From the NCBI GenBank assembly GCA_946631895.1, contig CAMPAN010000010.1, forward strand, positions 1 to 35,244: 35,244 nucleotides of DNA, given 5' to 3'. Positions 1,476-29,919 of the stretch are shown here, one piece after another. Position numbers and translations under genes: made by a program. The notes under the pieces were generated by a model. That model did no database searches. It was given only the letters and a program-made list of their open reading frames with translations, and was not told the origin of the DNA. This DNA is from an uncultured Clostridia bacterium. Its GTDB lineage: Bacteria > Bacillota > Clostridia > Christensenellales > CAG-138. Position 1 is the stretch's first letter; each line of letters begins with the position of its first letter.

Positions 1476-2081
1476 CTACAGCGAGAGGATCGCGCCGAGC
1501 GCGCCGCCCGCAAGGATGAAAAACAGCGGGTGGATCTTCGCGGTCTTTTTGAAGAATGCGAAGAACAGGAACACGCCGTAGATGCCGAGCTTCAGAAGCG
1601 TCAGCCGATCCGCAGAAAAGCGGAACTGCAGGAAGTTCGCTTTCACGCCGATCGCCACGAGCAGCAGTGAAAAGCCCGCCGCCGTGATGAGTCCGATCGC
1701 CGCCGGACGCAGCGCTTTGAAGAGGCTCTGGACGAGGTAGGAATTGTAATACTTTTTGATCGCCTTAGCGATCAGCACGATGATGATGACCGACGGCGTG
1801 ACCAGCCCGATCGTGGCAAGGATGCCGCCGGGGATCCCCGCGACATGATACCCCACGTACGTCGCCGCGTTGACGCCGATCGGACCCGGCGTCGATTCCG
1901 CGATCGCGATGATGTTGGCAAGCTCCGCCTCGGTGATCCAGCCGTATGCCGCGCCCATGTCGCGGATGAACGGTACGGTGGCAAGCCCGCCGCCGACCGC
2001 AAAGAGTCCCGTCTTGAAGAATTCGAGAAACAGCAGCAGGAGGTTCCGAAGATACATCAGCATTTTTTGAGCCCTCCCCAC
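1476..2081 (-). CDS. Chromate transporter, short-chain (single CHR domain)
   Basis: Membrane protein with FFKTGLFAVGGGLATVPFIRD and AIAESTPGPIGVNAATYVGY CHR-type motifs; true start likely the internal MLMYLRN, still overlapping the upstream gene. Confidence 0.88.
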   Translation of the reverse strand: MGRAQKMLMYLRNLLLLFLEFFKTGLFAVGGGLATVPFIRDMGAAYGWITEAELANIIAIAESTPGPIGVNAATYVGYHVAGIPGGILATIGLVTPSVIIIVLIAKAIKKYYNSYLVQSLFKALRPAAIGLITAAGFSLLLVAIGVKANFLQFRFSADRLTLLKLGIYGVFLFFAFFKKTAKIHPLFFILAGGALGAILSL

Positions 2082-28657: not shown

Positions 28658-28763
28658 AACGACGCCCCTCGGAAAACGATTGCTATTATCATACCATGAA
28701 ACGCGTCGGAACGCAATGGGGGCGCGGGTTGCGGATATCAAAGGACAGCATGGCAAACATGAA

Positions 28764-29111
28764 TTATCGGCGTATCATAATGCCTTTCATATACTGCGTT
28801 TCATTATGTGTCCGATATACTTCCGTTTTCTCTTCTTCCGTGCAGCCAATCAGTATTTTGATTTCCGAATCCCGCTTCATTAAATCAACAATACACATGA
28901 CGGCGTCGATCTTCCTGTCACCGCTTCCGACCCATACATCAATTCCTGCGCCATCCATAGAAGCGGTGTTTTTCAGATATCCGTAATCGACCTTATAAAT
29001 GAAATCCGGAAATCTCGGATGCGCGGATCCTTTGGGTCTGTCGATCACGATTTCCGAATTGCTTACCAATTCATCCAACGTATTCCAAAAAGCGACATTA
29101 TACTCATTCAT
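28764..29111 (-). CDS. Small inorganic pyrophosphatase-like protein
   Basis: MNEYNVAFWNTLDELVSNSEIVIDRPKGSAHPRFPDFIYKVDYGYLKNTASMDGAGIDVWVG; PPase-like order of motifs, only 115 aa. Confidence 0.6.
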   Translation of the reverse strand: MNEYNVAFWNTLDELVSNSEIVIDRPKGSAHPRFPDFIYKVDYGYLKNTASMDGAGIDVWVGSGDRKIDAVMCIVDLMKRDSEIKILIGCTEEEKTEVYRTHNETQYMKGIMIRR

Positions 29112-29207
29112 TTTTGCGTCCTCAGATTTGGTTGAAAACCCTTGTTGTGAACAACTATCCACGAAACCATTCTTCTCAAAATCGATGTAAACTGTGATTG
29201 AATGATC

Positions 29208-29567
29208 TCATTCTTCGTCCATATTCTTTTTCACCGTCTTGCAGGAAGCTGCCAGCATGACTCGTATCGAGGCGCATTGCTCGTTCAGAGCTTGATACAA
29301 GGGTTCTTCGATATAGTTTGTGCGGTGCAGCAATTCCAGCCAATAGCCGGTCTCGCTCGCTTCTTTCAATGCAATCTCCAGTTTGGAAATGAAATCCTTT
29401 TTGCCCTGCGCGTACTTGGCTTCATAAATATTGGCGCCGATGGATGTCCCGGAACGTCCTATTTGATTTGCGATGACGGACTCATGTTTTGCTTTCAGGT
29501 CTTTAACAAGAGCGATGATCCTAACGGAGAAGTCCATGGATAGATCCCGCAGTTTTGATTCGGACAT
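29208..29567 (-). CDS. Four-helix bundle protein (S23 / IVS-encoded / Avd-like family)
   Basis: 119 aa; SVRIIALVKDLKAKHESVIANQIGRSGTSIGANIYEAKYAQGKKDFISKLEIALKEASETGYWLELL; SD GAGGTGAT. Confidence 0.9.
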   Translation of the reverse strand: MSESKLRDLSMDFSVRIIALVKDLKAKHESVIANQIGRSGTSIGANIYEAKYAQGKKDFISKLEIALKEASETGYWLELLHRTNYIEEPLYQALNEQCASIRVMLAASCKTVKKNMDEE

Positions 29568-29595
29568 ATGATCACCTCATTGTTTCTATGTTTCG

Positions 29596-29624
29596 ATAAT
29601 ACCATTTTGAAAAGCGATTGTAAA
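29596..29624 (-). promoter_or_regulatory. Promoter of four-helix bundle gene
   Basis: Minus strand TTTACA-17-TATTAT; the -35 directly abuts the terminal CATCAC of the repeat array. Confidence 0.6.
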
Positions 29625-29800
29625 GTGATGCATGCGCCGAAGGCGCAAGTGATGTTTTTGCCGCAAGCGGCAAAAGTGATGCTGCTCCATGCTGTCGCCG
29701 TGATGTGATGTGTTCCGCTCACGTGCCGAAGGCACACATCACGTCCGCAGGACACATCACGCCGAAGGCACATCTCGTTCCGCGCCGGCGGAACACATCG
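29625..29800. repeat. Array of short distinct palindromes separated by GTGATG / CATCAC
   Basis: GTGATG at 29625, 29649, 29676, 29700, 29705; CATCAC at 29737, 29755, degenerate at 29771 and 29796. Hairpins 29633-29647, 29656-29675, 29723-29735, 29743-29753, 29761-29769, 29777-29794. Confidence 0.85.
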
Positions 29801-29802
29801 TT

Positions 29803-29844
29803 GAAAAAAGCGTTTTTTGCCGATCGGCAAAAAACGCTTTTTTC
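29803..29844. terminator. Perfect 42-nt palindrome; terminator of the tRNA array
   Basis: GAAAAAAGCGTTTTTTGCCGA|TCGGCAAAAAACGCTTTTTTC, immediately 3' of tRNA-Gly. Confidence 0.8.
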
Positions 29845-29845
29845 T

Positions 29846-29919
29846 TGGAGCAGGTAACGGGACTCGAACCCGTGATCTCAGCTTGGAAGGCTAATGTGTT
29901 ACCGCTACACTATACCTGC
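29846..29919 (-). tRNA. tRNA-Gly(TCC)
   Basis: GCAGGTATAGTGTAGCGGTAACAC...CTTCCAA...GGGTTCGAGTCCCGTTACCTGCTCCA. Confidence 0.94.

Follow-up and report, generated by a model that had tools for sequence, protein, structure and literature searches.

The S23/IVP four-helix proteins have solved structures and no assigned job, and heptamer repeats and the Gut-1 RNA have long been orphans. REP/BIME sequences, together with RAYT, are made of short word-plus-hairpin units in inverted pairs, which occur as dispersed copies and have a cognate protein gene. Mazel in 1990 and Elhai in 2008 reportedly described cyanobacterial repeats of two sorts, tandem heptamers (STRR) and small dispersed hairpin repeats. 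The intervening sequences (IVS) of 23S rRNA, for example in Coxiella, encode S23/IVP proteins and are cut out by RNase III (PMC4990558), and Gut-1 (RF01706) is a listed noncoding RNA of unknown function from human gut metagenomes (PMC2864571). Homing of the BPP-1 diversity-generating retroelement (DGR) needs a DNA hairpin with a GRNA loop, and group IIC introns are often located downstream of terminators (PMC3240598). In a search of open-access papers, no account of a linkage between an S23/IVP gene and a hairpin array was found; in a CRISPR-discovery paper, the legend of a figure on genes associated with arrays includes '23S rRNA IVP' in its list of domain abbreviations.

The window, i.e. the whole stretch of 35,244 nucleotides that was analysed, was described in an earlier note as containing a 119 aa four-helix-bundle gene whose promoter abuts an array of at least six self-complementary hairpins punctuated by GTGATG or CATCAC. 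All these features are confirmed, and are listed here with their surroundings.

29208..29567, minus strand: four-helix-bundle gene, 119 aa, PF05635/TIGR02436 (profile matches)
29596..29624, minus strand: promoter TTTACA-17-TATTAT, touching the last CATCAC word
29625..29706, minus strand: second arm, inverted units with CATCAC on the gene strand (stems TTTTGCCG, TGCGCC)
29707..29718, minus strand: distal closing-stem partner GCGGAACACATC
29719..29802, minus strand: first arm, units of word and hairpin in which the gene strand reads GTGATG or a variant (stems GTTCCGC, GCC, GTCC, GTGCC)
29788..29799, minus strand: 5' arm GATGTGTTCCGC, common to hairpin 1 and the closing stem
29803..29844, no strand: hairpin 0, 21-bp perfect palindrome, terminator-like, left end of the unit (palindrome search; relatives)
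29846..29919, minus strand: tRNA-Gly(TCC), final gene of the tRNA cluster (ARAGORN; same-genus comparison)
28764..29111, minus strand: probable passenger gene, 115 aa, with a weak inorganic-pyrophosphatase-like match (PF18823, E 2e-6)
about 28729..29827: stretch present in the window and missing at the same site in the same-genus genome G330 (same-genus comparison)

The protein belongs to the S23/IVP four-helix-bundle family by its fold and by the curated profile cut-offs: it matches PF05635 with E 7.7e-27 and 94 bits (cut-off 33.8), and TIGR02436 with E 1.2e-30 and 105.9 bits (cut-off 24). The six hairpins of the array (29625-29802) are perfect and have the stems named previously, the word being GTGATG in one half and CATCAC in the other, and the array folds better than 200 of 200 dinucleotide shuffles (z -4.0 as DNA, -3.0 as RNA). 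The arm of hairpin 1 can also pair with a sequence 92 nt away, so that the closing stem competes with the first hairpin. Hairpin 0, 42 nt in all, resembles a tRNA terminator.

Sequence comparison within the genus places the insertion point at the CCA end of tRNA-Gly(TCC). At this site G099 and G325 have no array, and G330 has no four-helix gene; the passenger gene falls within the stretch that G330 is missing, and other terminators come after tRNA-Gly in the same-genus genomes. A small ATGATG-type array remnant is kept there in G330. The idea of a mobile element that inserted beside the tRNA cluster is supported.

Like an IVS, the element appears to be small and selfish, encodes the same protein family, has a stable-RNA gene context and hairpin ends, and lacks a recombinase. 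Unlike the IVS, which lie inside 23S rRNA genes, it lies behind tRNA-Gly, and its relatives follow either a tRNA CCA end or the end of a protein gene; the word-hairpin arrays and the passengers are further differences. The inverted pairs of word-plus-hairpin units in the window are like those of REP/RAYT; the protein, in contrast, is unrelated, a four-helix bundle that has no nuclease domain, and a Y1 association is not found (see below). Nor is the cassette in the window an insertion sequence, for it contains just the four-helix gene and the weak pyrophosphatase-like gene and no transposase of its own; no recombinase or nuclease was found within the cassette. As judged from its sequence, the cassette works somewhat like REP-RAYT or IVS, with full membership in neither.

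The survey of relatives comprised 297 genomes of the order and 80 further loci from named genomes, which gave 148 oriented loci; many of the sequences are metagenome-assembled genomes (MAGs) with contig breaks. The distribution of the four-helix protein is patchy (76 of the 297 genomes), with up to five copies per genome, many of them decayed. Each locus was scored for linkage by the 6-mer that yields the most word-hairpin-word units in its flanks. At least three units were found at 69 of 140 related genes, as compared with none of 140 shuffled flanks and none of 71 control stretches from the same loci. The layout is conserved, the forward units being about 230-150 bp and the inverted units about 130-45 bp upstream of the gene. 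A closing stem of at least 9 bp is present in 29 of 36 elements (2 of 180 shuffles), and the covariation of stems claimed from the single locus is seen as double changes in 22 of 57 consensus pairs. Therefore, the linked two-part system proposed in the earlier note is borne out across many genomes, and none of the three outcomes that it had named as refuting, namely no linkage, no covariation, or a dispersed repeat unrelated to the gene, was observed.

The word varies between elements (GTGATG, ATGAAG, GTGAAAT, and others). On the protein tree it requires 15 changes, against 59.7 for shuffled labels and a minimum of 8, a co-evolution signal that is inflated by near-copies. In the 49 rows with a tRNA, the word requires 6 changes (26.1 shuffled), whereas the kind of tRNA requires 36 (38.1 shuffled) and thus does not cluster. 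Related elements therefore keep their word and change their address. From the co-evolution of word and protein, we infer that the protein may bind word-hairpin DNA. Candidate sites in the protein for co-variation with the word are positions 26-33, 57, 64, 71, and 95-97.

Some relatives occur outside this setting. L321 (MT835815), a human faecal phage-like contig filed as phage, has a tRNA-Arg, a terminator, a GTGATAT/GTTATAT array and a 61% identical gene; a comparison of the four-helix protein with viral contigs gave no matches. The gene also has relatives in MAGs from distant taxa (L147, L151, and L159 of Lentisphaeria, and L165 of Acholeplasmataceae), which possibly reflect horizontal transfer or an error of binning; GTGCAG is the word of the arrays in L165, and L147 has no arrays. 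In the 1.1-Mb genome G209, there are 24 matches of ATGATG triple-word arrays and the four-helix gene was not found; across the 297 genomes, the ATGATG pattern is drowned by coding repeats.

The association with tRNA genes is directional. A tRNA end is found within 900 bp upstream on the same strand for 70 of 136 genes and on the opposite strand for two, with none in 110 shifted control windows, and the target tRNAs are of 18 kinds. Pairs of elements that are at least 82% identical and located at different tRNAs can be aligned from the CCA end through the stop codon of the gene, which indicates that the terminator hairpin travels with the unit. The common terminator core TTTGTCTAC..GACAAA has 12 occurrences in 12 genomes (0-3 per genome), and all 12 are at array left ends. 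A host-wide terminator style was considered as the source of this hairpin and rejected on these low copy numbers and on the restriction to arrays.

A defined right end was revealed by tandem units; it consists of two YACCTTTT boxes about 30 bp apart and ends in ...CA. The boxes are present in L097, L108, L113, L117, L163, L174, L307, L308, and L315. Since the right end is recognisable in about 8 of the 127 loci with enough sequence and none is found in the window, this part of the description applies to a subset of the elements. The first strict search never placed it on the opposite strand, and because a genome-wide search for the pattern was mostly at background, only cases with context were used. 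Complete cassettes have the order tRNA, hairpin 0, array, passenger, right end, and ordinary terminator in L307 (1059 bp) and L308, while L315 (652 bp) is complete without an array. In L097, L117, L312, L313, and L314, too, there is a plain terminator after the right end, as would be expected from downstream displacement of the old terminator by the insertion. Three cassettes lie in tandem at L174/L216 (contig C91 of G062), the third directly after the start codon of a dead gene copy, and at L223/L113 (G335) a second cassette with arrays, a promoter and a different gene lies behind the first.

With a terminator on one side and a promoter on the other, the hairpins might instead be a host-beneficial insulator or operator, which separates tRNA transcription from the downstream gene and does not move. 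This is highly improbable, considering the patchy occurrence (76 of 297 genomes), the decayed copies, the 18 kinds of tRNA, the near-identical units at different tRNAs, and the displaced terminators.

The passengers vary widely: among 60 downstream reading frames there are matches to 65 Pfam families, most commonly methyltransferases and acetyltransferases, and the passenger start overlaps the stop of the four-helix gene as ATGA in 18 of 96 cases. Arrays without the four-helix gene are also found, in agreement with the earlier comparison to MITEs. In L227, L233, L244, and L245, an array with a promoter lies between a tRNA and a different gene, and one-armed arrays are found at the 3' ends of protein genes, including rsmG (in the window's genome), guaA and an rlmD-like gene. 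At several protein-gene sites, the host gene itself contributes to hairpin 0: for rlmD in L195, for example, the left arm is formed by the terminal part of the gene and the right arm by the reverse complement of that part. Palindromes of this kind, which join the terminal part of an rlmD-like reading frame to its reverse complement, lie at array left ends upstream of the four-helix gene in L195, L205, L207, L208, L211, L185, and L123, and in the imperfect copies the differences are mostly G-T type changes. Perfect palindromes could in part result from template-switch repair instead of selection.

In the window's genome, the window array is the sole GTGATG-hairpin-GTGATG site, none being found elsewhere. 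A second, one-armed array with GTGATAT words (L235, contig C114, about 1500-1580, minus strand) is located directly at the rsmG 3' end, with the left arm of its hairpin 0 within the end of rsmG, and scores 71 bits against the Rfam Gut-1 model (cut-off 50). GTGAAAT-type arrays reach 76.9 bits with this model, their first arm being matched on the gene strand and their second arm on the opposite strand; the window array is subthreshold (28.2 bits at 29731-29803, minus strand; gathering cut-off 50). Gut-1 matches are found in 75 of the 297 genomes, often more than 10 per genome, and they co-occur with the four-helix gene (both, 56; array only, 19; gene only, 20; neither, 202; odds ratio 30, p 4e-27). 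By these matches in sequence and structure, the orphan Gut-1 RNA of Rfam is the same array as that of the cassettes; unlike in its listing, it corresponds here to a single arm of a DNA element, with matches on both strands. This identity, as well as the terminator in the unit, the passenger genes, and the word-protein co-evolution, extends what was noted from the single locus.

Whether the array is recognised as DNA or as RNA may be approached through its loops. On the word strand of both arms, 176 loops are TN(N)C and 3 are GN(N)A. Each unit is thus oriented, and since the arms are inverted copies in both word and loop, one transcript cannot show both alike. The complementary strand has C(GNA)G and C(GNNA)G loops, which are unusually stable in single-stranded DNA. 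The array is located after the terminator and before the promoter, whose -35-like box is separated from the last word by 0-3 nt in 35 of the 49 detected. Loop polarity and placement appear to favour recognition at the DNA level over the RNA level. Alternatively, the array may act as a structured transcript bound by the protein, e.g., a decoy or a processed sRNA. The description of Gut-1 as a noncoding RNA with covariation (PMC2864571), the presence in the family of proteins encoded in 23S rRNA intervening sequences, and an RNA fold better than that of shuffles are consistent with this; as the reverse-complementary arms could not take the same form in one transcript and the array follows a terminator and precedes the promoter, we regard it as rather unlikely.

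The predicted model of the protein (pLDDT 95) is closest to structure 2rld (TM 0.9), and also resembles 2gsc. The four-helix fold is like that of Avd of the DGRs (4dwl, 8ub7; TM 0.76), a system that uses DNA hairpins with GRNA loops; unlike for Avd, with which identity is 13%, no requirement for a reverse transcriptase is seen. Counted by hand from the listed genomes, a reverse transcriptase is present in 26 of the 76 gene-bearing genomes and in 45 of the 221 that lack the gene; for a Y1 transposase, the numbers are 31 of 76 and 78 of 221, respectively. Neither enzyme is required, and Y1 is not associated with the four-helix gene. No reverse transcriptase was found in G284 (98% complete, 2 contigs, 4 gene copies); in the window's genome (63% complete) there is no match to RVT_1, hence no sign of a DGR, and no Y1 transposase.

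These counts bear on two further explanations. The protein could be an Avd-like accessory to a reverse transcriptase acting in trans, with retrohoming to hairpins as in DGRs or group IIC introns. Besides the fold, the GN(N)A loops of the CATCAC strand recall the GRNA loop of the BPP-1 homing hairpin, and the position of the arrays recalls that of group IIC introns downstream of terminators (PMC3240598). Considering how few of the gene-bearing genomes have a reverse transcriptase, and that no TR/VR pair was noticed, this explanation is very unlikely, and the reverse-transcriptase partner suggested earlier by analogy with Avd is not upheld. Alternatively, a Y1/HUH transposase may move the arrays as dispersed repeats of the REP type, and the four-helix gene may be a mere passenger. 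The inverted word-plus-hairpin pairs and the one-arm arrays at gene 3' ends do resemble REP/BIME layouts, but the lack of association with Y1 and the tracking of the four-helix protein by the word leave this explanation with very little probability.

We consider it probable, on the sequence comparisons above, that the locus is a small mobile cassette behind a tRNA CCA end, composed of an array and a matched four-helix protein that would act as its binding and marking factor. A strong hairpin, which is also the tRNA terminator, forms the left end and is followed by a two-armed inverted array in which each unit is a short heptamer-like word plus a DNA hairpin; the promoter adjoins the last word, and after it come the four-helix-bundle gene and then a passenger gene. 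Some of the relatives also have the defined right end, beyond which lies the displaced original terminator. By analogy with its structural relative Avd, the protein is probably an oligomer. It would be a word-specific factor that recognises the word-hairpin units of its own array in the form of hairpin or cruciform DNA, acts there as a repressor of its own promoter, and marks the cassette for movement, while cleavage and joining would be performed by an enzyme from outside the cassette.

Beyond the order, ten plasmid-borne relatives from Cyanobacteria, Bacteroidota, Spirochaetota, Chloroflexota, and Monoglobus were sampled. Clear tandem heptamers lie upstream in nine of ten relatives (28-42 of 42 lag-7 matches; controls, 15-18), and the tenth has a short stretch; heptamers lie downstream too, as the reverse complement in most. 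Both sides have them at L316-L320 and L323-L327, a Nostoc example being ATTCGTA / TTACGAA. Among the clostridial loci without hairpin arrays, about nine of 34 also have heptamers. It thus appears that the clostridial array is a heptamer array with interposed hairpins. The heptamer arrays that flank relatives of the gene in Nostoc, Dolichospermum, and others are like STRR, from which the clostridial arrays differ in having hairpins between the words. To our knowledge, no report ties the cyanobacterial heptamer repeats to a four-helix protein. In L318, L320, and L324, the gene is within restriction or methylase operons, flanked either by hsdS and hsdR or by genes for a helicase and a DNA methylase, and in L327 it is behind a helicase gene; a defence context is possible for these four.

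The two-part system of the earlier note is, on the sequence evidence, real and wider than proposed: a mobile cassette with a matched array and protein. The recurring word-protein pairing gives the Gut-1 RNA and the S23/IVP family their first context, and such a matched pair makes S23/IVP, the heptamers, and Gut-1 testable. It is quite possible, though not the likelier case, that they are facets of one phenomenon, namely a class of mobile systems that extends across phyla and pairs a nuclease-free four-helix protein with its own heptamer word, with tandem arrays on both sides in most bacteria, and with hairpins between the words and spread as tRNA-end cassettes in gut Clostridia. If the cassette interpretation is true, the Rfam annotation of Gut-1 would change from an RNA to a DNA element, and the shuttling of single genes (acetyltransferases, methyltransferases, nucleotidyltransferases, and others) between tRNA ends would be a common process in gut and rumen Clostridia.
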